Source of the DNA: a virus
DNA: 26,546 nucleotides
Virus record (IMG/VR): IMGVR_UViG_3300023174_003475
Location: 1-26,546 of that record
Strand: one strand, 5' to 3'
Shown here: in pieces, positions 5,956 through 26,546 of the stretch
Layout: each line of letters starts with the position of its first letter
How positions within the stretch are numbered: position 1 is the stretch's first letter
Notes under the pieces: generated by a model
Told to the model about the DNA's origin: nothing
Database searches by the model: none
What the model saw: only the letters and a program-made list of their open reading frames with translations
Translations under genes and position numbers: made by a program

Positions 5956-7815
5956 ATGGCTGAAATTAGATTTGCTGAATTGGATTTTGCAAAAATAAAA
6001 CAAAATCTAAAGGCATATTTACAATCGCAAACTCAATTCAAAGACTATAACTTTGAGGGTTCTGCCATATCAACGTTATTGGATGTTCTTGCATATAACA
6101 CAGCATACAATGGCTTTTACTTAAACATGCTCTCCAGTGAGATGTTTTTGGATAGTGCAAGTCTACGAGAAAGTGTAGTATCACACGCCAAGCATCTTGG
6201 CTTTGTTCCTCGGTCGGTTCATGCTCTCAGAACTCGCATGGACATCACGTTGACTGTCACTGAAAGAATCGAGAACATCAGCTCTTTGCCATTTTCTCTT
6301 CTAATCTCACCAACAGACCAGATTTATTGTGTTGTTGATGGCGTTCGATATGATTTCAGTCCAGTCACATCCACTTACGTTGAAAATCCAGAGCTGACGT
6401 ATTCAACTAATGCATATGGACAGAGTGTTGTTGCTGCAACATTTACAGCAACAAATGTAGAGTTTGTTGAAGGAAAACGATTTACTCACCGTTGGACGGT
6501 TGATAACACCACTCCAGTTAAACAAAGATTCATTATTCCAAATAATAATGTAGATATGTCGATGGTAAAAGTTAGTGTGCAAGACTCTGCTCAGAGTAAT
6601 AACACTACAGGTTTTTTGCCATTTAACGATCTAAACACCCTTAACCCAACAAACACCATCTACTATACACAAGAAGTATCAAACGGAAGATACGAGATTG
6701 TCTTTGGCGATGGCGTGTTGGGTAAAGCATTGGCTGATGGAAACATTGTAATTGTTGATTATGTTGTTGCTAGTGGCAATCAAGCTAACAAAGCAACGTC
6801 GTTTAAAGTATCTGGCTCTTTGGGTGGAGTCAAATCACAGTCTGTGGTGTTGAAGTTGGTTCAAGCTGCTGGTGCATATCAAGCTCAAGAAACACTCGAT
6901 CAAATCAAATTTTTTGCACCAAAGGTCTACAACACACAAAATCGTGCTGTAACAAAATCTGATTATGAGACTTTACTCAAACGAGAAATCCCATCAATCA
7001 AACACTTGAGAGTGTGGGGTGGTGAGGAGAACGTTCCTCCAGTGTATGGTAAAGTTTTTTGTGCAATTCAACCAGATACTGGCCGAACTATTAGCGAAGA
7101 AGAAAAAGCACGAATCATCAACACATACATCAAACCTAGAAGTGTGTTGTCTATTCAAGTAGAGTTGGTTGAGCCAGCGTATTTGGGGCTTCAAATTTCA
7201 TCACAAATTAACTACTTCTCCAACAAAACTACAAAAAACAAAGACGACATTAAGAATCTTGCTGTTAATAAAATCAAAGAGTATAGAAATCAGAATTTAG
7301 TTGGATTTGATGCAGACTTTAGATATTCAAAGCTCATTAAGGAGATTGATTCTGTTGACTCTTCAATTGAAAGCAATTTAACAGAAATCAAGATGAAGTA
7401 TCGGTTAGTTCCTGCTTTTGATGTGCTTTCAAAATATTCTTTTACTTTGAATAATCCAATAGACCTTGGTGATGCAACAAACAACATCTCCTCCGTTAAT
7501 AGTACTGGATTTTTATACAATGGTTTGATGGTGTATATCAGTGACAATGGGCAAGGTAAATTATACATCTACTATCTCTCCAACCAACAAAAAATTGTAA
7601 TCCAGCCAAATGCAGGTACTGTAAATTACAAGACGGGAGAAATTACTATTGAAAACTTGTTAGTCACGGGCATTCCGAACGGACTAAACTATATTGATTT
7701 GATTGTGACCCCAGCTATTAATGATATTATTGCTTTGAGAAATCAAATACTTCTTTTGGATGATTCTGACATTAATGTGCAAGTTGTAGATTTACTTAGA
7801 GCTAACATCTCATAA
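5956..7815 (+). CDS. gp6: Baseplate wedge subunit gp6 (J-like)
   Basis: Core wedge protein; in T4 a gp6 dimer clamps gp7 and the wedges close into the inner ring. The N-terminal signature is unmistakable: DYNFEGSAISTLLDVLAYNT (30-49), FLDSASLRESVVSHAKHLGF (64-83) and VPRS. A J-protein type segment, FGDGVLGKALADGN, begins at residue 250, and NTQNRAVTKSDYETLLKREI, typical of J/gp6 proteins, lies in the middle. At 619 aa it is close to T4 gp6 (660 aa). The ATG sits one base after the gp25 stop. GGAG at 5939 is rather far away (13 bases), so coupling with gp25 is likely. Confidence 0.95.
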   Translation: MAEIRFAELDFAKIKQNLKAYLQSQTQFKDYNFEGSAISTLLDVLAYNTAYNGFYLNMLSSEMFLDSASLRESVVSHAKHLGFVPRSVHALRTRMDITLTVTERIENISSLPFSLLISPTDQIYCVVDGVRYDFSPVTSTYVENPELTYSTNAYGQSVVAATFTATNVEFVEGKRFTHRWTVDNTTPVKQRFIIPNNNVDMSMVKVSVQDSAQSNNTTGFLPFNDLNTLNPTNTIYYTQEVSNGRYEIVFGDGVLGKALADGNIVIVDYVVASGNQANKATSFKVSGSLGGVKSQSVVLKLVQAAGAYQAQETLDQIKFFAPKVYNTQNRAVTKSDYETLLKREIPSIKHLRVWGGEENVPPVYGKVFCAIQPDTGRTISEEEKARIINTYIKPRSVLSIQVELVEPAYLGLQISSQINYFSNKTTKNKDDIKNLAVNKIKEYRNQNLVGFDADFRYSKLIKEIDSVDSSIESNLTEIKMKYRLVPAFDVLSKYSFTLNNPIDLGDATNNISSVNSTGFLYNGLMVYISDNGQGKLYIYYLSNQQKIVIQPNAGTVNYKTGEITIENLLVTGIPNGLNYIDLIVTPAINDIIALRNQILLLDDSDINVQVVDLLRANIS

Positions 7816-7820
7816 AAAAC

Positions 7821-9839
7821 ATGAGTACAGTTGTTGATTTAAATTTGTGTGGTATTGAGTCTTCTGAACAGCTTGGATCAACAAGTGTCGTACTCATTGT
7901 CACAGCACCATCTTTAGGAGATAGTGCAGAATTTGGATATGGTGCTGTATACGATAGCTCTAGTTTGGTGATTACAGAACAACCAGGTATCATTGAACTT
8001 GGGGGGCTTGGAATTCCATCAGAAGAAGATTTTAGAAGCCTACAAAAACTTGCTCCAATACCATCATCTGAGGCATTTGGGACTTTCTTTGTTAAACGAG
8101 TTGTCAGAACCGTCTCAATAACGGCTTCAGTTTCTGTACCAACCCCAGCATTTAAAAACATTCTAGCATACGGAATTGTAAGTAAAGAGTCCGTTTCTGC
8201 ACCATCAATTGCTCAAATTAATGATCGCCCCGGAAATAACATTCTCATCGCATCTCACTTCCCAGGATTTGTTAGCGAAGAGCACCCAAGATTTTTGGCG
8301 TTTGTGGAATCATACTACAAGTGGTTGGAGACCAAAGGAAATGTCCTATACGAATCCAAAAGATTAAAGAACTATAGAGACATTGATACATCAGTAGATG
8401 AGTTTGTTGAGTATTTGTTTAAAGAATATCTTCCACAAATTCCAAGAGATGCTTTAGCAGACAAAAAAATACTCCTGAAACATATCAAACAGTTCTATAG
8501 AGCAAAGGGAACTGAGAAGTCCTATAAGTTTTTCTTTAGAATCCTGTTTAATTCAAATGTTGAGTTCTACTATCCACGAGTTGATATTCTACGAGCATCT
8601 TCTGGTAAGTGGGTCCAAAATAAGACCATTCGTATCTTAAATGTTAAGGGTAATATTGCAGACCTTGTTGGACAGCGAATTAGAGGTCTTAATAAGAATT
8701 GTACTGCTACGGTAGAAAGAGTTTTTGGAATCTCTTCCGGTGGAACTAGCGGATATGAGTTGACATTGAATCAATCTAGCATAACTGGAACATTTGGGCC
8801 AGGGGAGCAGGTTGAGTCGGATAATACCACAGTTTTGGAAGATGGGTCGGTTGTCCCTGCTGTATGGGCAATTATAAGTCCTATACCAGTCTCTGTTAAG
8901 ATTATTGATAATGGGTCGAGCTATCGAGTGGGTGACGTTTTTCCTATCGTGAGCCTTGTAGGAAAGGGCTCTGGCGGTAAAGTTAAAGTCGAAAAGGTCG
9001 ATTCTAATGGTGGAATCCAAAAATTGTCCGTAATGGCGTATGGTTTGGGATACAGTAAAGACGAAGTTCCTGTAATTGATTTCAGCCAACCCGAACAAAC
9101 TATTGAAAACAATCTAGATTCTTTTATTGATACAACTCCAACAGACAGAACAGTGGCTATTGGAATAGTGCAAATGGGGTCAACTACTCAATATCCTGGA
9201 TATTATTTGGATGAAGAGGGGCATTTAAGTACTTCCAAATATCTACAAGATGGGCATTTTTATCAACAATTCTCTTATGTTACATATGTGTCTGAGGCAT
9301 TAACACAATATAAAGAACTACTTAGACAGATCTTGCATCCAGTTGGATTAAAACATTTTGGTGGTGTCAGAATACAAAATAGACTTAACACAAACATCAA
9401 AAATCCAAAACAAAAACCATTTCCAACAAAACGACAGGTTACTTTACACACACCAAACAGCAAATTTAACATTCATGTTGAAACCACGTTGAGACACACC
9501 ATCTTGAAAAATCCAAAATCTTTTGGGCTTGGTGCTAATCAATATTCATTATACAGAAACCGATATAATTATAAACCATTTGAAAAATATGATGCAAATG
9601 ATGAGATGCGGGGGGTTAATGGCGACTATTATGGAGATTATTACGATCTTTCCGCACAAAAGGCAGCCTCACCTATTGCACATTTTGGCCATATGAAACC
9701 ATCAGACCTAGAAAAGAACGCTCCTTGGGTGTCAATAAATATGATGCCAGACAGCTTTATTAGAAAAGAGCCGTTTGTCAAAATTGGATCTATTTTCACT
9801 GAAAACTTTTTTGGAAACTGCGCAATAACAAGCAACTAA
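7821..9839 (+). CDS. Baseplate wedge-type structural protein in the gp7 position, 672 aa
   Basis: I recognise this as a structural family conserved in marine T4-like phages beside gp6 and gp8. The hallmark is residues 147-262: FPGFVSEEHPRFLAFVESYY, then YRDIDTSVDEFVEYLF, HIKQFYRAKGTEKSYKFFFR and YYPRVDILRASSGKW. Its place between gp6 and gp8 suggests it does the job of T4 gp7, but I cannot see sequence similarity to gp7, so that is inference. The first 130 residues hold about five diverged copies of a short SxExxG repeat. Residues ~265-430 look like small beta modules with GSSYRVGD and GLGYSKDE type turns. The tail is basic and Tyr-rich. It starts 5 bases after gp6 without a Shine-Dalgarno. 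Confidence 0.8.
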   Translation: MSTVVDLNLCGIESSEQLGSTSVVLIVTAPSLGDSAEFGYGAVYDSSSLVITEQPGIIELGGLGIPSEEDFRSLQKLAPIPSSEAFGTFFVKRVVRTVSITASVSVPTPAFKNILAYGIVSKESVSAPSIAQINDRPGNNILIASHFPGFVSEEHPRFLAFVESYYKWLETKGNVLYESKRLKNYRDIDTSVDEFVEYLFKEYLPQIPRDALADKKILLKHIKQFYRAKGTEKSYKFFFRILFNSNVEFYYPRVDILRASSGKWVQNKTIRILNVKGNIADLVGQRIRGLNKNCTATVERVFGISSGGTSGYELTLNQSSITGTFGPGEQVESDNTTVLEDGSVVPAVWAIISPIPVSVKIIDNGSSYRVGDVFPIVSLVGKGSGGKVKVEKVDSNGGIQKLSVMAYGLGYSKDEVPVIDFSQPEQTIENNLDSFIDTTPTDRTVAIGIVQMGSTTQYPGYYLDEEGHLSTSKYLQDGHFYQQFSYVTYVSEALTQYKELLRQILHPVGLKHFGGVRIQNRLNTNIKNPKQKPFPTKRQVTLHTPNSKFNIHVETTLRHTILKNPKSFGLGANQYSLYRNRYNYKPFEKYDANDEMRGVNGDYYGDYYDLSAQKAASPIAHFGHMKPSDLEKNAPWVSINMMPDSFIRKEPFVKIGSIFTENFFGNCAITSN

Positions 9840-9865: not shown

Positions 9866-11770
9866 ATGACAGCAATTATAAAAAATAGATTCCGACTTCA
9901 AAATGCAAAAGATTTTCTAGAAAATTTTGCACAACATCCAAGAATGAGAAATGGCGCACCACTTCGCCTTACTGACGCAATTTCTTTGGTGAATGTCAAT
10001 CCAGAAGAAAGAGTTGCATCAGCGCACTTGTCGTTTCAATGGCGACTTGATCCTCGCATCACCGATTTAACAAACTCAGATAGCAACACTCAAATTAAAA
10101 ATGATGCTCCTCGTGGTCTTATAGAATATTCTGGGGCGCACGTTCGTGATAGAAATCACTATTTGTTTGTAGGAAAAGCTCTTCCATGGGGCTCCACCAC
10201 CGCATCAGAAAACAATCCACCAGTAGCAGCTGATACTCTTCTTGAAGAGCGAGAAGTGTGGCATGAGATGTTGAGTCTCAAAAAAATAGCCCAGATAGAT
10301 GGAACGCTCGTTATTCCTAGAGTTGATTGGGATGGTTCTCAAAAGACCATATACGTTCCTTTTGATGATAGAGATGCAAACCTTTACAACCACCCAACTC
10401 CAGCAGAATCTTTAGCTGCTAATACTGCAAATGCATATGCTGGTTCGTTTTATGTTTTAACTGACGACCATCACATTTTTGTTTGTTTAGAGAATGGTGG
10501 TGGAAGAAAGAGCACAGTTAAGCCAGTTTGGACTGATGATTACACTAATGTGTTAGATTATAGAGATTTGGATGGCTACGTCTGGAAGTACATGGGATCA
10601 GTAAGTTCTGCAAATGCTGCAAAATTTTTGACTGACAGTTGGATTCCAGTTCGTACTCTTGGAAATATTCCAAATGATTCTTCATTTCAATGGCAGGTTG
10701 AGTTTAATGCTAAACCAGGCCAGGTGTTGTCTTTCATCATTGATAATCCAGGAAGTGGATACACAAAGATTCACAAAGGCAAATTCACAAATGCAAGCAA
10801 CGTAAACAACAACGGAACTGCAACATTAACTGCACTTCCTGATGGAACTCCTCCATCTGACGTTGAAGGATATTATGTTGGCGCACAAATTCATATTGTT
10901 GCGGGTGCAGATGAAGGAAAGGCATATGATATTGTTGCATACAATACCAGCAATGGAAAGCGAGAGCTTACTGTAAATGGTCCATGGGCTGTAGATGATT
11001 TAACATCTGAATATACTATTACACCAAAAATTGCAATTCAATCGGATAGCAATCCTGCAATAAAAATTCTTCCTATCGTACAAGATGGGAAACTCAAGTC
11101 TATCAAGATACTAGAGCGTGGTTTAAATGCTAGTTTTGTAAATGCAACTGTTGTTGCAAACTCAGCTCAAGCTGTTGGTGGAATTCAAGCTAAGGTTAGA
11201 GCTGTTCTTAGTCCAGCAGAAGGATTAGGAAAAGACATTGAGAAAGATTTGGGCGCACATTATGTAATGCTTTCTGCAAAATTGGCATACCAAGAAGGCT
11301 CTGGGGATTTCCCAATTGATAATGATTATAGACAGATTGGAATTATTAGAGATGTTAAAAATGCTGATGGAACATTAGCAACAGCAAACACTCTTAATGC
11401 AACAAAGAGAGTGCGTCTTTCAAACATATCTTCTAGCGCATTTCAGCCAGACGAAAACATTTTGATGAGCACAAACGGTGGAACAACTTGGGTTGAGGCT
11501 GGAAAAGTGTTGGAATATGCAGCCAGCACTAATGAAACTGGTATTTCATATATGTCATTCTTTAAAACTCTTGGAAACACCACGTCTCTTGTTGGCGGTG
11601 GAACTGTTCTTGTGAAAGGACAAACATCCAATGCCCAAGCTACTGTATTGGATGTATACAATGAAGAAGTTTTAAAATTTTCTGGAGAAATTTTGTATTT
11701 GGAAAATCGTCGTCCTATTCTGCGCTCACCAGACCAGATAGAAGATATTAAAGCTATCGTAGAATTTTAA
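9866..11770 (+). CDS. gp8: Baseplate wedge subunit gp8-like, C-terminally extended
   Basis: In T4 gp8 is a dimeric wedge protein on the outer side of the baseplate. The family signature is present: MTAIIKNRFRLQNAKDFLEN at the N-terminus, HYLFVGKALPWGS (about 97-109), VWHEMLSLKKI, FYVLTDDHHIFVCLENGGG and DLDGYVWKYMGSVSSANAAK (about 235-254) with FLTDSWIPV following. T4 gp8 has 334 residues and this has 634. The extra part has GSGYT-type and ILERGLNASF beta modules and the segment DIEKDLGAHYVMLSAKLAYQ, an arrangement I associate with marine T4-like gp8 proteins. It has its own promoter box. Confidence 0.88.
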   Translation: MTAIIKNRFRLQNAKDFLENFAQHPRMRNGAPLRLTDAISLVNVNPEERVASAHLSFQWRLDPRITDLTNSDSNTQIKNDAPRGLIEYSGAHVRDRNHYLFVGKALPWGSTTASENNPPVAADTLLEEREVWHEMLSLKKIAQIDGTLVIPRVDWDGSQKTIYVPFDDRDANLYNHPTPAESLAANTANAYAGSFYVLTDDHHIFVCLENGGGRKSTVKPVWTDDYTNVLDYRDLDGYVWKYMGSVSSANAAKFLTDSWIPVRTLGNIPNDSSFQWQVEFNAKPGQVLSFIIDNPGSGYTKIHKGKFTNASNVNNNGTATLTALPDGTPPSDVEGYYVGAQIHIVAGADEGKAYDIVAYNTSNGKRELTVNGPWAVDDLTSEYTITPKIAIQSDSNPAIKILPIVQDGKLKSIKILERGLNASFVNATVVANSAQAVGGIQAKVRAVLSPAEGLGKDIEKDLGAHYVMLSAKLAYQEGSGDFPIDNDYRQIGIIRDVKNADGTLATANTLNATKRVRLSNISSSAFQPDENILMSTNGGTTWVEAGKVLEYAASTNETGISYMSFFKTLGNTTSLVGGGTVLVKGQTSNAQATVLDVYNEEVLKFSGEILYLENRRPILRSPDQIEDIKAIVEF

Positions 11771-20208: not shown

Positions 20209-23091
20209 ATGGCTTATATTGGAAACGCAAAAACTCCATTAATTTTTGCCTCTAATACTAGAGACGATATTGTTCCAGTTAAAAACGCAAATGGAACATA
20301 TAAGGCTCAGTTTTTGCTTTCTCAAGAAGTACCTGGTGGTTATGATGCTAATGTGATGGTTCTTCGCCGTCAATATGTTAACACCCCTCTGGTACAAAAT
20401 TGTAGTTTGTTAACACTCACTAAGACATTAGATTCTAACTATGCCAGTGGATATAAAGTAGCTCTTTCCACCACTGATTCTGATTTGATTGCCACCTTAA
20501 ATGATGTTACTCCACAATCATCGTCGTATGATGGAGACTCTGTTGAGATTTCTGGCGCAACAAATGAATATAATAACAAAATTGTTCTTGTTATTGAAAA
20601 GAATTATGATGGTAATGCGCTAGAGCTTGTTCTCGAAAATCCAGATCTTGTTGCAGAAGCTGGTGGCTCCATCACTCTCAATAAACGATTCTATGCCCCA
20701 TGGGAAGTATTAGAACCAGAGGCCGATTACAGTATTGAAAATGGTGGGCTTCTATCTGAAAAAAATCGAGTAATTCGATTTACTAAACCTCCAACAGAGT
20801 TGGATGTTGTGTATGTGTTACATCGTGGAGATGCAACATATAACTTTGTTCCCTCAGCAAAGTCGGTTGGTCCAGAACAATTAAGTGATAATTTAAGAAA
20901 TTTTGTTTGTGATAGATTTACCGTAGTAGTAGACGGCGAAACTCAATTTGTTCTAAGTCAAACTATTCCCAGCTCACGCTCCGTTTTAGTGTTTGTTGAT
21001 AATGTCATAACCGATGGTGATGATATTACATCAGGGTTTTTAGAGGGTGATTGGAGTTTAGAAGAAGATGGACAAACCATCACGTTTAAGTCTGGGTTGT
21101 CATTAGGCACAAAAGTAAAAGTGTGGCACCTTGGTTTGGGCACAATCTCTAGAAGGGCAGTATTTTCCCCAGGTCAGGGTCAAGGAGCAATTTTAGATCG
21201 ATCTATTACTACTGATAAGCTTGCATATGGAGCTGTAACAACAGAGCGTCTTGCTGATAATGCTGTAACCCTGGCAAAGATGGCTGATGACAGCGTAAAT
21301 GGTAGCAACATATTACTTGAAAATAATCAAGCTATTAGAATTAAAGACTTGGCTGGTAATGCAATTCCTGCAATTAAAATGCAGGATTCTGATATAAAGA
21401 TAACAACACCAGCAAATGGTCAGATACTATTTCAAAATCAACAAAATGCTAATGCAGGAATGCAGGTTCAATTATCTTCTGTTTTAACTGCATTGACTTT
21501 AAATTGTCAAACATCACCAGAATCTTTTGATATTATCACAACACAAACACAAACTCTATTAACCAGAAATAACGCAGATATTGTTATTGATGGAAATGGA
21601 ATTAAACAACGGTTTACTACACTAGCTGGAACACCAACTCTAAAAATTACTCCAAGTAGTGGAAGTGGATTTTTTAACATTGAGGCACCCGAAGGCAGTC
21701 TTTCTACAGATACAGTAAACGCATCTCTGGTGGTAGCTGACAATGTAATGTGCTCAAATTTAACTGCTACTACAATTAATAATGTTCCAGTATCACAAGT
21801 TGGTTCTCCAACCGGAACTATTGTTATGACCGCATTAGATACTGCACCAGAGGGGTGGTTATTGTGTGACGGTCAAGAATATGACGTTTCTACTACACCA
21901 GCTCTTGAGGGGTTGCGCACAGCTATTGGAACTAAATTTGGTGGTACTGGCACAAGATTTAAAGTTCCAGATTTAAGAAAACGATTTCCAATTGGAAAAT
22001 CTTCAGATACGCTCGTGGGCGACTCTGATGGATTAGATGTCTCCGAAAGAAACATCAGACATGCCCACGATGGTGCGCCGCATACTCACGATATATCTCA
22101 TACACATACCATTCCTGGCCATGTGCATGAGATGGTATCGACCCAATCAACATTAGCTGTGACTTCATTGCAATCTGGTGATCATGAAACTAGCCTTGCT
22201 CATACTCATGATACATTTACAACATCTGAAGAAGATTTAAATCACAGACACGAATTTACTCACGGCCACGGCAGCGAATCTTCAAAATTTGATACAAAAA
22301 CTGAGAGTGTAGATCACACACATAGTGGTTCAACAACCGCCGCCGCAGCAGACCCAGTTTATTCTGGGGGAGCGCATCAAAATACTTTATATGGTCGATC
22401 TGGCACTCCAGCACAAAATGGATACCCAAGAGTTAGCACCACAATTAGTAGAGATAGTGCTCTGGATAATAGTCCAGCAACTCAATTGAGTGGGGCACAC
22501 CAACATGCATTTTCTACCGGAGGTGCTAGTGTAAGCCATACACACGCATTTTATATTAACGATACCGCCCAAAAATTTACTCTTGGTGCAATAAACACAA
22601 ACAGCACATCAAATAAAGATTTAAAACATAAACACACAATTACTGCGTTGTCTTTACCTGAGTTAAATTCAAGTGGAGTTAAAAATAAAAGCTCTAGTGT
22701 TGGGTATCACACCCATGCAGCAGACCATTTTACTGGTGCTATAGGTAGAAAAAATACCCCTAAAACTCTTACAAGAGTATTGTTGCAGGATAGTAATATT
22801 ATTTACTGCGATACTACAAATGTTTTTGTTGGATCTAGCATTAGCTCAACCGACAATAGCTTCCCAACAAATACAATTGTTATGGAAGTTTTTGCAGACA
22901 GAGTTAGAGTGTCTAAGAATGCATTGGTAAACAGAGCAGTTGGAACAACGGTTACATTCAGTGCAGCAAACGGAAATGATGAGCTTTCTACAAATTTCCA
23001 AAATAACACAAGCTCTGGAACTAGCACGGCATCTCAAACTGGTTCTGCAACATCTCCATACTTAGTTTTAAATTTTATTATTAAGACATAG
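20209..23091 (+). CDS. Tail fibre with phage collar domain and twelve HxH motifs
   Basis: Probable receptor-binding fibre, comparable with T4 gp12 (short fibre) or the gp37 tip. Residues 1-310 hold beta modules of the kind 'VLVFVDNVITDG...GLSLGTKVKVWHLG'. Residues ~325-365 carry fibre repeats (SITTDKLAYGAVTTERLADN, then AVTLAKMADDSV). Residues ~530-605 are the phage tail collar domain (GTIVMTALDTAPEGWLLCDG, then GTRFKVPDLRKRFPIGKS). From 616 to about 835 there are twelve HxH motifs (such as HAH, HTH, HVH, HRH, HGH, HQH and HKH), the type that binds iron in the T4 gp37 tip. The C-terminus YLVLNFIIKT is typical of collar fibres. The ATG follows TGGAATAGACA. A dedicated chaperone was not found in the window. 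Confidence 0.9.
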   Translation: MAYIGNAKTPLIFASNTRDDIVPVKNANGTYKAQFLLSQEVPGGYDANVMVLRRQYVNTPLVQNCSLLTLTKTLDSNYASGYKVALSTTDSDLIATLNDVTPQSSSYDGDSVEISGATNEYNNKIVLVIEKNYDGNALELVLENPDLVAEAGGSITLNKRFYAPWEVLEPEADYSIENGGLLSEKNRVIRFTKPPTELDVVYVLHRGDATYNFVPSAKSVGPEQLSDNLRNFVCDRFTVVVDGETQFVLSQTIPSSRSVLVFVDNVITDGDDITSGFLEGDWSLEEDGQTITFKSGLSLGTKVKVWHLGLGTISRRAVFSPGQGQGAILDRSITTDKLAYGAVTTERLADNAVTLAKMADDSVNGSNILLENNQAIRIKDLAGNAIPAIKMQDSDIKITTPANGQILFQNQQNANAGMQVQLSSVLTALTLNCQTSPESFDIITTQTQTLLTRNNADIVIDGNGIKQRFTTLAGTPTLKITPSSGSGFFNIEAPEGSLSTDTVNASLVVADNVMCSNLTATTINNVPVSQVGSPTGTIVMTALDTAPEGWLLCDGQEYDVSTTPALEGLRTAIGTKFGGTGTRFKVPDLRKRFPIGKSSDTLVGDSDGLDVSERNIRHAHDGAPHTHDISHTHTIPGHVHEMVSTQSTLAVTSLQSGDHETSLAHTHDTFTTSEEDLNHRHEFTHGHGSESSKFDTKTESVDHTHSGSTTAAAADPVYSGGAHQNTLYGRSGTPAQNGYPRVSTTISRDSALDNSPATQLSGAHQHAFSTGGASVSHTHAFYINDTAQKFTLGAINTNSTSNKDLKHKHTITALSLPELNSSGVKNKSSSVGYHTHAADHFTGAIGRKNTPKTLTRVLLQDSNIIYCDTTNVFVGSSISSTDNSFPTNTIVMEVFADRVRVSKNALVNRAVGTTVTFSAANGNDELSTNFQNNTSSGTSTASQTGSATSPYLVLNFIIKT

Positions 23092-23099
23092 GGTTAGAT

Positions 23100-25235
23100 A
23101 TGGGAAAATATATTGGTAGAGATAACCCATACGGATTATTTGAGAAACAGGTTTTAAACTCTGATGGTTCTGAGACTTCTTTTGATTTGAACTACACTGT
23201 AGGTAGTGCTGAGTCTTTGTTGGTTGTATCTAATGGGGCTGTTTTGCAGCCAGGCTCTGATTATGACTTGGATGCTGGTGGCGCTAAGATTCAATTTAAT
23301 ATTGATCCACCACCAGGGGCTCTTTATGTCTTGTATTTGGGTCGAGAGTTAGCTGTTGCTACTGGTATTTCTTCTGGGCCAATTGTGGCTTTGACTCAGT
23401 TATCGGATGTTTTCATTCAAATACCATCTGAAGGACAGGTTCTTAAATTTGATGGATCGGCTTGGGTTAATTCTGATGTGGAAGGAACTTTTAGTGGCGA
23501 TTACAACGATCTAAGAAATAAGCCAGTTATACCAGACGTTACTGCACTTCAAAGTAACATTAACTCACTCTTATCCACAACTTCGACTCACACAAGCCAA
23601 ATTGCTGCTCTTCAATCCTCTATATCAGCAATTGATTTAAATGCTTTAAGTGATGTTGCAGTTTCTTCTCCATCTTCTGGACAAATTCTTAAGTATAATG
23701 GAAGTTCTTGGATTAATTCTGCTAACGAAACTGTAGCCAACTTAGAAGACCTTCAAAACGTTTCTATTACGTCACTTAGCACAAATCAAATCTTAAAGTA
23801 CAATGGAACTAATTGGGTTAATAGCACCCCTACAAGTATTCCAACTACATTAGATGGTCTTGATGATGTTGCTGTAGTTTCTCCACAGACCGACCAAGTG
23901 TTGCGCTATACAGGAAGTGTTTGGGTAAACAGCTCACTTCCGACTGTTACAGGTCTTGCAACGGTTGCTACCACAGGATCTTACAATGATCTTATAGACA
24001 AACCAAATCTACCAGAGGCTGGAAATACAACAAATATTGTTGTTAATAATTTTAACACCAATTTAACTCCAGTAAGCAACACACTAACTATTGATTGTTC
24101 ATTAGGAACCGTCTTTTTAGGACAACTTACAGCAAGTGTGAGTACTTGGAATTTTACAAACATTCCAGCAACAAATGGAAAAGCAACAAACGTAACTGTA
24201 GTAATTGATGGAAACACAAGTTACACATACGGCAGTAACTGTTCTGTTGATGGGGCGTCTATTGCAGATGGGGTTCTCTGGAGCAAGGGGCTTTCTCCTA
24301 GAGCCACATCTGAATTAGATATGCTATCATTCTGCATTATTAAAGATAACGCAGGAAGTGTTAAAGTATTAGGCTCCTCTACATTCAACTACAATAGTGC
24401 TACCCTTGAAATATCTGGGCCATATCCTGAAGGTCCAGGTGGAATTGCAATTCAAGGGCTGTTAGGTTGGTATGATGCAAATGAAGTTTCTACAATTCGT
24501 AATGCATCTGATGAGGTTGTGTCTTCTTATGGAGAACTTGTTTATGAATGGCATAATAAAGCAAACACAAACAATGAGCACTATTTAAGAAATAGTGGGC
24601 CACCTGGAGGGGTTTCATACATTCCAAACGCATTAAATGGGCTTCCTGGAATTTATTTTGATGGAACATCTTTTATTAGTTTACAAAATGATAGTAATTT
24701 TGAACTTGGATCATTTACCATTTTTACTGTTATGTTGCCCGAAACAACACTAGGGTCAGCATATCAAGCCATAGGGTCAAGCTTACAAGATACCTCAGAT
24801 GGATATTTTAACATGGCGGTAAATTTAAACAGCACTTGGGGTGTTGGTGGTGGTACTGGCCCAGGAGATATTAAAAGGTCTTACAAAATTGGAACCGCAA
24901 ATGAATATATTGTGCCAACAGCAGCAAGAGTTATATGCCACGCATTTCATGCAAATGCCAATAATGTGTTGAGCTATGCGTCTAGAACAAGCTCAACTCT
25001 TGTTGAATCTCTTGCTTCATATACGGAAACATATCCAGATAACCAGCCACCCCCAAACATTTATAACTACCAGGGCGGGTTTCCTCAGTATAAGATGATG
25101 ACATATGGTGCTTCGGGGTTTATTTTTGAGCACATTGTATATGCCCGGCCATTAGATTTCCAAGAGAGAATATCCGTTTTAGCATACCTTGGCTCTAAGT
25201 GGTATGGGTCAATTTTTGTAAATCAGGCATACTAA
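23100..25235 (+). CDS. Tail fibre with four GQxLxYNGSxWVNS repeats and a lectin-like tip
   Basis: Probable second receptor-binding fibre. Residues 1-85 are a beta module also seen in the previous fibre (SLLVVSNGAVLQPGSDYDLD, then PPPGALYVLYLG). Four repeats of the form LxDVxxxSPxxxQxLxYxGSxWVNS follow (about 101-125, 183-207, 218-242 and 254-278). Two G-x-YNDLxxKPxxP motifs (GDYNDLRNKP and GSYNDLIDKP) are common in phage fibres. Residues ~450-711 (GLLGWYDANEVSTI ... GLPGIYFDGTSFISL ... FEHIVYARPLDFQERISVLA then YLGSKW) fit a concanavalin/LamG-like jelly roll, suggesting glycan binding. The ATG has AGGGTT just upstream. A terminator follows the stop. Confidence 0.87.
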   Translation: MGKYIGRDNPYGLFEKQVLNSDGSETSFDLNYTVGSAESLLVVSNGAVLQPGSDYDLDAGGAKIQFNIDPPPGALYVLYLGRELAVATGISSGPIVALTQLSDVFIQIPSEGQVLKFDGSAWVNSDVEGTFSGDYNDLRNKPVIPDVTALQSNINSLLSTTSTHTSQIAALQSSISAIDLNALSDVAVSSPSSGQILKYNGSSWINSANETVANLEDLQNVSITSLSTNQILKYNGTNWVNSTPTSIPTTLDGLDDVAVVSPQTDQVLRYTGSVWVNSSLPTVTGLATVATTGSYNDLIDKPNLPEAGNTTNIVVNNFNTNLTPVSNTLTIDCSLGTVFLGQLTASVSTWNFTNIPATNGKATNVTVVIDGNTSYTYGSNCSVDGASIADGVLWSKGLSPRATSELDMLSFCIIKDNAGSVKVLGSSTFNYNSATLEISGPYPEGPGGIAIQGLLGWYDANEVSTIRNASDEVVSSYGELVYEWHNKANTNNEHYLRNSGPPGGVSYIPNALNGLPGIYFDGTSFISLQNDSNFELGSFTIFTVMLPETTLGSAYQAIGSSLQDTSDGYFNMAVNLNSTWGVGGGTGPGDIKRSYKIGTANEYIVPTAARVICHAFHANANNVLSYASRTSSTLVESLASYTETYPDNQPPPNIYNYQGGFPQYKMMTYGASGFIFEHIVYARPLDFQERISVLAYLGSKWYGSIFVNQAY
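23400..23934 (+). repeat. Four diverged 25-residue repeats in the second fibre
   Basis: Copies end in KFDGSAWVNS (to 23474), KYNGSSWINS, KYNGTNWVNS and RYTGSVWVNS (to about 23934). Spacing is uneven: about 82, 35 and 36 residues between copy starts. Each copy has Leu-Ser/Asp-Asp-Val at its head. They are protein-level repeats with little DNA identity and probably build shaft or neck modules. Confidence 0.75.
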
Positions 25236-25479: not shown

Positions 25480-26546
25480 ATGGCATTAACTAAAATTCGT
25501 GGTAATACACAAATTAAGTCGGGGTCCATTACTAATGCAGAAGTAGCAGCAAATGCTGGTATTGAGCTTAGTAAACTCGCCCAAGGCGCAGAACTTATTC
25601 TCAAAGACGGTTCCGTAGCATTTACTGGAAACGTAGACGCTGGTTCTAACAAAGTCGTAAACGTAGCTACTCCAACGGCATCAGGCGATGCTGCTAATAA
25701 AGCATATGTTGACCAAGAGATTGCTGCTGTTGCAGATCAAGTCGTAAATGACCTTGAGCCTCGCCTCAGCAACATCGAAGATCGCATGACAGGTGCCGAG
25801 GGAGATATTGATTCTCTCGAAGGTCGTATGTCAACTGCTGAAGGAGATATTACTGCTCTTGAAGCTGCTGTAGCTGCTGAAGCTTCTCGTGCTGGTGCTG
25901 CTGAAGCTGCACTCCAAGCTGATATTGATGCTGAAGAAGTTAATCGCTCTGCTGCGGTTGCTGCTCTTCAATCAGAATTAGACGGAACACAAGATGGCCT
26001 TGCTGCTGAAGAAGCTCGTGCAATGGCTGCTGAGGCTGCTCTTGACACTCGCATGGATCAAGCTGAATCTGACATCAATGCTCTTGAAGCTGCTGATGTT
26101 GTGCTTGATGGTCGTGTAACTGATCTTGAGAACGGTCTTTCTGCTGAGACAACTGCTCGTGTAGCTGCTGATGCAACTCACACAAGTCGTTTGAACGGTG
26201 CAGAGTTTGACATCGACGCTCTTGAAGGACGAGCAACTGCTGTTGAAGCTGATGTTGCTGAACTTCAATCTGACCTTGCTGCTGAAGAAGCTCGTGCAAT
26301 GGCTGCTGAGGTCGCACTTCAAGCTGAGATTGATGCTGAACAAGCTCGTGCTGAGGCTGCTGAGGTTGCACTTGCTAGTGATCTTTCTGACGAAGAGTCT
26401 GCTCGTATTGCTGGTGACGCCGCTCTTGCTGCTGACCTTGCCGACGAAGAGTCTGCTCGTATTGCTGGTGACGCCGCTCTTGCATCAGACATTTCTGATG
26501 TTGCTGCTGACCTTGCTGCTGAGACTGCTGCTCGTATTGCTGATGT
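25480..26546 (+). CDS. Ala/Glu-rich coiled-coil tail fibre, 3' end missing
   Basis: The frame is open from ATG 25480 to the window edge (355 codons visible). The start is supported by AAGGA 9 bases upstream and by the N-terminus MALTKIRGNTQIKSGSITNA, which with LSKLAQGAELILKDGSVAFT and DAANKAYVDQEI is typical of fibre attachment regions in marine T4-like phages. From about residue 85 it is a long coiled coil of Ala, Glu, Asp, Leu and Arg, with units such as LAAEEARAMAAE and DEESARIAGDAAL. A trimeric rod carrying a tip beyond the window is the likely form. Codon choice leans to GCT and the GC content is higher than in its neighbours. It has its own promoter and terminator-bounded unit. Confidence 0.85.
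   Translation, partial: MALTKIRGNTQIKSGSITNAEVAANAGIELSKLAQGAELILKDGSVAFTGNVDAGSNKVVNVATPTASGDAANKAYVDQEIAAVADQVVNDLEPRLSNIEDRMTGAEGDIDSLEGRMSTAEGDITALEAAVAAEASRAGAAEAALQADIDAEEVNRSAAVAALQSELDGTQDGLAAEEARAMAAEAALDTRMDQAESDINALEAADVVLDGRVTDLENGLSAETTARVAADATHTSRLNGAEFDIDALEGRATAVEADVAELQSDLAAEEARAMAAEVALQAEIDAEQARAEAAEVALASDLSDEESARIAGDAALAADLADEESARIAGDAALASDISDVAADLAAETAARIAD
25998..26311 (+). repeat. Pair of identical 38-base segments in the coiled-coil fibre
   Basis: 25998-26035 and 26274-26311 are identical over 38 bases, 276 bases (92 codons) apart and in the same frame, encoding LAAEEARAMAAE. This points to duplication or recombination between coiled-coil units. Confidence 0.85.
26389..26483 (+). 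repeat. 41-base direct repeat, period 54, in the coiled-coil fibre
   Basis: 26389-26429 and 26443-26483 are identical over 41 bases with a period of 54 bases (18 codons), encoding DEESARIAGDAAL. The in-frame period means copies can be gained or lost without breaking the gene, changing fibre length. Confidence 0.9.

Follow-up and report, generated by a model that had tools for sequence, protein, structure and literature searches.

Twelve HxH motifs inserted in the collar of a phage tail fibre point to an elongated gp37-like needle

The window, which is the whole 26,546-nucleotide stretch of viral DNA analysed here, encodes a tail fibre in which a collar domain is interrupted by an array of twelve HxH motifs and closed by the C-terminal strand of the protein. 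The tip of the fibre is likely to be a gp37-type collar that carries a long hairpin needle with a metal axis lined by the HxH motifs. The combination of the collar, the inserted array, the closing strand, the conserved histidine pairs, and the placement of hydrophobic residues on the same strand face as the histidines makes a gp37-like needle well supported. By analogy with phage T4, the fibre is very probably a stretched version of the T4 tip with a row of metal ions, and not a new kind of structure or principle.

The HxH array and its collar frame

All twelve HxH motifs are located between residues 618 and 836 of the fibre (bases 22060–22716), and the rest of its 960 residues contain none (Table 1). 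The interval of residues 617–839 that holds them comprises 223 residues, of which 26 are histidines. In 20,000 shuffles of this interval the number of HxH motifs had a mean of 2.9 and a standard deviation of 1.5, and never exceeded 10. The earlier note had counted twelve motifs in about 220 residues, and the count is confirmed. The starts of consecutive motifs are separated by 7, 6, 7, 27, 14, 6, 18, 61, 13, 30, and 27 residues. The array is not a microsatellite, because both histidine codons are used in it and no tandem DNA repeat was found at positions 21700–23100. The linkers had been called rich in serine, threonine, and glycine. Together with asparagine, these residues constitute 44% of the linkers, compared to 33% of fibre residues 1–535 and 64% of the gp37 needle, which bears out the description only in part. 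Searches of the array alone against Pfam and PHROGs gave no match at E ≤ 1.

Table 1 Features of the collar-type tail fibre gene in the window (aa, residues of the fibre; relatives, eight related fibres in which the motif is kept)
Feature	Position	Strand	Basis or remark
Collar-type tail fibre gene, 960 aa, ATG start	20209-23091	+	ORF call and Pfam; relatives with common neighbours
Fibre N-terminal part, aa 1-240, kept in relatives	20209-20928	+	37-44% identity, 10/12 loci
Collar domain, aa 532-600, D10-like	21802-22008	+	Pfam PF07484; model pLDDT
HxH 1, aa 618, HAH	22060-22068	+	8/8 relatives; low motif score, -0.2
HxH 2, aa 625, HTH	22081-22089	+	8/8 relatives
HxH 3, aa 631, HTH	22099-22107	+	8/8 relatives; motif score 9.5
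HxH 4, aa 638, HVH	22120-22128	+	8/8 relatives
HxH 5, aa 665, HTH	22201-22209	+	8/8 relatives
HxH 6, aa 679, HRH	22243-22251	+	3/8 relatives
HxH 7, aa 685, HGH	22261-22269	+	4/8 relatives; low motif score, -3.9
HxH 8, aa 703, HTH	22315-22323	+	6/8 relatives
Longest HxH-free gap, aa 706-763, 58 residues, proposed tip	22324-22497	+	by analogy with gp37
HxH 9, aa 764, HQH	22498-22506	+	6/8 relatives
HxH 10, aa 777, HTH	22537-22545	+	4/8 relatives
HxH 11, aa 807, HKH	22627-22635	+	6/8 relatives
HxH 12, aa 834, HTH	22708-22716	+	6/8 relatives
In-frame orphan insertion, 68 aa, aa 850-917, return arm, no HxH	22756-22959	+	absent from relatives
C-terminal strand closing the collar, aa 951-959	23059-23085	+	model strand 428-436; structural alignments

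The collar matches the Pfam family Phage Tail Collar (PF07484) with 64.4 bits at residues 536–594. In the AlphaFold2 model, calculated from a 20-sequence alignment, block means of pLDDT are 81–92 at residues 534–593 and 89 at residues 954–960. Structural alignment of the model with VIA-align gave Z values of 8.1 to T4 gp12 (1ocy), 7.0 to the fibre of Anabaena phage A-1(L) (8kec), and 5.9 to gp37 (2xgf), and the alignments, which extend from model residues 6–8 to 437, pair the two ends of the model with those of the gp12, gp37, and A-1(L) chains. Of these, the Z value to gp37 is moderate. Values in this range could not establish kinship alone, but they agree with the sequence matches. A Foldseek search with the tip model returned no match at E ≤ 0.001. 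The match of the confident C-terminal strand to the last strand of known collars places the array inside the collar, as an insertion like that of T4 gp37. The insertion has about 325 residues, or about 257 without the orphan segment, with its boundaries placed by analogy.

The orphan segment, residues 850–917, is absent from the aligned parts of the six relatives of the fibre in a seven-sequence profile (A1) and of the IMG/VR fibres L129 and L130, and has no match at E ≤ 1 among 50,697 phage records. Its single-sequence model is poor, with a mean pLDDT of 44, yet shows strands.

Homology to both gp12 and gp37 was detected in searches of solved structures, and the preferred structure depends on the query. 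The single fibre protein matched gp12 alone (0.0034). Profile A1 ranked gp12 first (3.1e-9) and also matched gp37 (2.4e-5), with hhalign probabilities of 96% for gp12 and 95%, over 123 columns, for gp37. In contrast, the best match of a 20-sequence profile (A2) was gp37 (2XGF; 5e-13), over both the collar and the needle, followed by gp12 (2.5e-11); the score to 2XGF is inflated, with a composition bias of 32.7 bits beside a domain score of 48.7 bits.

The closest parallel in architecture is the tip of T4 gp37. According to passages of PMC6957217, domain D10 of gp37 (residues 811–881 and 1010–1026) has the fold of the gp12 collar, domain D11 (residues 882–1009) is a 128-residue insertion in D10 that forms a stem and a tip, and seven iron atoms lie along the needle. 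The sequence of gp37 contains eight HxH motifs, seven of them after the collar, in agreement with the earlier statement that seven irons are bound through HxH motifs. In gp37 (2XGF), as in the window fibre, an insertion with HxH motifs splits the collar and the C-terminal strand closes it, and the context of the motifs is similar. The two differ in that gp37 has seven motifs in its 128-residue insertion, compared to twelve in about 325 residues, and lacks the tight cluster with spacing 7-6-7 that adjoins the collar of the window fibre. The needle had been proposed to be unusually long; its length is borne out by this comparison, and its rarity only in part, as detailed below.

Gp12 (1OCY, 5IV5) shares the collar and provides the best fold match and the best single-protein sequence match, and the window gene follows baseplate-wedge genes as gp12 follows gp10 and gp11. 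However, gp12 has one HxH motif, and its region after the collar has no sequence match to the window fibre. Gp34 of phage A-1(L) (8KEC) combines a collar with an HxH array, but the array has five motifs at a regular spacing of 9. The fibre arm of A-1(L) is described as similar to gp37 in passages of PMC10966104, the main text of which does not contain the words "metal", "histidine", or "HxH".

Conservation and strand-face pattern of the histidine pairs

Eight fibres from IMG/VR (L129, L130, L012, L043, L047, L080, L082, and L133) possess the collar, 11–15 HxH motifs, and the same closing strand. They differ from the window fibre in the number and spacing of the motifs, and those inspected lack the 68-residue insertion. 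Seven of them also have the fibre N-terminus and the preceding gene in common with the window, and L080 is cut. The relatives were found through an HxH-spacing DNA pattern or an alignment search with an HxH pattern among its patterns. In separate pairwise alignments, both histidines of a motif are aligned to histidines in 75 of 96 comparisons, and identity is 80% at motif histidines, compared to 26% for the other residues of the needle and 48% for the collar; these figures are somewhat inflated because the relatives were HxH-selected and L082 closely resembles L133. When the motif positions in the relatives were shuffled in 20 replicates, the mean was 43.8 of the 96 comparisons and the maximum was 50. 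Conservation is complete for the first five motifs and weakest for those at residues 679, 685, and 777 (Table 1). A search for relatives with the C-terminal part of the fibre as a single sequence found none.

A lone histidine at residue 659 (bases 22183–22185), in the context SGxH, is kept in seven of the eight relatives. It is replaced by HTH in L047, which indicates that sites change between relatives. His 659 may be what is left of a thirteenth site.

Residues 0, +2, and +4 of a beta strand lie on a common face. Counted from the first histidine, position +4 is hydrophobic in 7 of the 12 window motifs, 240 of 413 family motifs, five of seven in gp37, and all five in A-1(L) gp34. The corresponding numbers for position +3 are 0 of 12, 31 of 418, one of seven, and none of five. 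The +4 count of the window was reached in 0.3% of 20,000 shuffles. In a second family sample selected by the collar only, which partly overlaps the first, hydrophobic residues occupy position +4 in 140 of 260 and position +3 in 17 of 264 motifs. Position −2 is hydrophobic in eight of the twelve window motifs, as opposed to none of seven in gp37 and 99 of 413 in the family. Scored on the family motif matrix, the window motifs range from −3.9 (residue 685) to 9.5 (residue 631), and the needle motifs of gp37 from 1.7 to 5.2. The gp37 HxH at residue 742, outside the needle, scores −6.6.

The hydrophobic same-face pattern suggests that the sites are buried. Since the histidine pairs of gp37 show the +4 pattern and bind iron, there is indirect evidence that the histidine pairs of the window fibre also point inward and may face the trimer axis. 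The needle has low confidence in the AlphaFold2 monomer model, in which 341 of 437 residues have pLDDT below 50, and the direction of the histidines is therefore deduced from the sequence pattern.

Proposed needle and its loading with metal

In the preferred structure, three chains would form the collar and extend from it as an intertwined thin beta needle with the histidine pairs inside. Each chain would turn at the tip, in the gap between motifs 8 and 9, and return so that its last strand closes the collar. The two histidines of each HxH motif would be on the inner face, the three chains would thus supply six histidines per metal ion, and up to about twelve octahedral sites could be arranged along the needle axis. 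The metal, which by analogy would be Fe(II), may fix the register of the chains, their folding, and the stiffness of the needle. The longest gap may serve as the receptor-binding tip, as in gp37, where the tip, residues 932–959, falls in the widest interval between needle motifs (929 to 966). It had been suggested that the segments between the motifs could loop out. No evidence for this was found for the linkers, and the 58-residue gap probably is the tip.

Passages of PMC6116203 report that iron is also bound by HxH sites of pyocin fibres and of central spikes, describe six histidines per ion in pyocin fibres, with the same motif as in gp37, suggest a role of the metal in folding, said there to be without data, and mention that zinc in gp12 may stem from reconstitution. 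Magnesium is depicted in needle domains in a figure legend of PMC12028318. In gp37, the substitutions H929A and H931A led to the loss of plaque formation, and more than 30 purified tip mutants were all trimeric; the relevant passages of PMC6957217 are silent on whether histidine mutants were among them.

It is possible, but less likely than the structure preferred above, that the needle is only partially loaded. Not all twelve motifs need be metal sites, because those at residues 618 and 685 score low on the family matrix and the last seven, beginning at residue 679, are kept in only three to six of the eight relatives. A core formed by the four tight motifs after the collar, the motif at residue 665, and some later ones would then bind metal, perhaps 6–9 ions. 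The remaining motifs would be partly degenerate or exposed, with the serine-, threonine-, and glycine-rich segments bulging as loops. The motifs at residues 679, 685, and 777, aligned in three, four, and four relatives, are the best candidates for such loss, and the histidine at residue 659 illustrates that sites vary between relatives. However, L129 retains twelve motifs with almost equal spacing, and in gp37 seven needle motifs correspond to seven irons (PMC6957217, in part).

It is improbable that the histidine pairs form a surface for metal exchange or iron presentation that engages host siderophore receptors, although this "Ferrojan horse" hypothesis has been printed for HxH fibres of marine phages, in passages of PMC11705849. 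Besides the pattern that suggests burial of the sites, the ions of gp37 are placed along the stem and it is residues of the tip that contact the receptor, yet H929 and H931 at the end of the stem are needed for plaques (passages of PMC6957217). Furthermore, passages of PMC10892097 report that five Vi01-like phages infect TonB- and FeoB-deficient Salmonella approximately as well as the wild type, with HxH motifs unmentioned there. The least probable explanation, an unstructured and fast-drifting low-complexity tract of histidine, serine, and threonine or a DNA repeat artefact, agrees with the composition of the linkers and with the variable length of the region among relatives, but is largely contradicted by the mixed histidine codons, the lack of a tandem repeat, and the conservation of the histidine pairs far above that of the linkers.

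HxH numbers in related fibres and the gene neighbourhood

The number of HxH motifs was counted in two samples of related fibres; because both consist of the best 80 matches to queries that included HxH-rich fibres, the counts are not population frequencies. Loci seeded by HxH pattern or alignment contained 124 collar ORFs, which gave 91 distinct tails, or 75 once incomplete ones were dropped. These 75 have 0–17 HxH motifs, and ten have at least twelve. The collar-only sample contained 87 collar ORFs in 80 loci, from which four cut and six duplicate ones were dropped. The remaining 77 tails have a median of two motifs; 13 have at least seven and eight have at least twelve. The eight originate from six contigs, one of which is the contig of the query L012. 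Twelve motifs are thus a high number for these samples, but a recurrent one, which answers the earlier call for a comparison with related fibres and qualifies the description of the needle as unusual. The number of motifs and the length of the part beyond the collar are correlated (r of 0.73 and 0.70 in the two samples). These counts suggest that, in a family graded from 0 to 17 HxH motifs after a related collar, the tip of gp37 is among the shorter of those with many motifs.

The closest relative in profile A2 is L129 (42%), with twelve motifs spaced by 7, 6, 7, 26, 16, 6, 18, 47, 24, 27, and 22 residues. The exact 7-6-7 spacing, written as a DNA pattern, matched at least 120 stretches, many in chance frames. 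Many matches to the spacing pattern were rejected as relatives, because the frames are short or repetitive and their HxH motifs arise by chance, as was L085, a serine- and histidine-rich low-complexity tract. A search with the collar and first motifs hit 569 records of the phage collection at E ≤ 1. Among the named phages inspected, Synechococcus phage S-CAM7 has nine motifs, S-N03 two, and ACG-2014f four and three in two proteins. The tail protein of the cultivated S-CAM7 (KU686213) resembles the window fibre in that its collar precedes the array, but the spacing differs and the 36% identity covers only the collar and first motifs. In bacterial genomes, six relatives were recognised among 97 pattern matches; their alignments cover the collar and extend no further than the beginning of the array.

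Binding of iron in trimers has been proposed for the HxH arrays in fibres of Alteromonas phage R22Y (six motifs; PMC11705849) and Burkholderia phage E094 (gp23, seven motifs; PMC8174754), in passages of these papers. Both arrays are shorter than that of the window fibre, beside which they are set by description. Three motifs are given in print, in partial text, for V22. In a literature search mostly outside subscription papers, and in the passages seen, no published fibre with at least twelve HxH motifs was met, and the maximum was seven.

The window fibre may belong to a mostly uncultivated class of fibres with hyper-metallated needles, in which length and ion number grow together to 12–17 ions per trimer, about twice as many as in T4, and in which the 7-6-7 cluster by the collar forms a structural unit absent from gp37; we regard this broader proposal as tentative, at slightly less than an even chance. 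If it is correct, a virion with an assumed six fibres would hold at least about 72 ions. The graded family is relevant to the question of how fibres become longer and to the suggestion that tails of marine phages bind dissolved iron, and offers natural length variants for probing what the metal ions do.

Two further loci are rich in HxH motifs. L147:3929-7946 contains three consecutive collar-fibre ORFs with twelve HxH each at nearly equal spacing. In L003, a 379-residue frame around 9128-9667 contains 32 HxH, mostly spaced by 6–7 residues; its start looks collar-like and it runs to the end of the locus examined.

The window contains T4-like baseplate genes, one gp6-like (5956-7815) and one gp8-like (9866-11770). 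The best gp6 matches, at about 36%, are from Pelagibacter phages HTVC008M and Mosig and from Methylophilales phages. Three small ORFs precede the fibre gene. Upstream, the window also encodes a DUF4815 protein of 2424 residues, whose relatives in named phages carry labels that include VrlC protein and baseplate wedge tail fibre connector. The fibre N-terminus, presumed to be the virion-proximal end with a role in attachment, is matched in ten of the twelve loci compared (seven distinct contigs). The 117-residue gene immediately upstream is matched in the same ten loci, and the DUF4815 protein in nine of the twelve. We consider it likely that the gene belongs to a T4-like myophage and that its fibre is trimeric with a gp37-type distal tip. 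The full-length fibre matched four records of the phage collection, aligned at residues 136–366 and none at the array, and no close DNA relative of window bases 1–25000, or of part of L129, was found in the collection.

The gene 3′ of the fibre (23100-25235) encodes another putative fibre, of 711 residues, and its PHROGs matches are tail fibre, virion structural, or unknown proteins. Its first approximately 90 residues recur directly after the collar fibre in relatives and are perhaps a shared virion-attachment module. The last ORF (25480-26544) is open-ended and encodes 355 residues rich in alanine, glutamate, and aspartate, with a match to a tail-needle PHROG (2e-10). Over its first 134 residues the product has 80% identity to L129, a much higher value than for the other genes compared.
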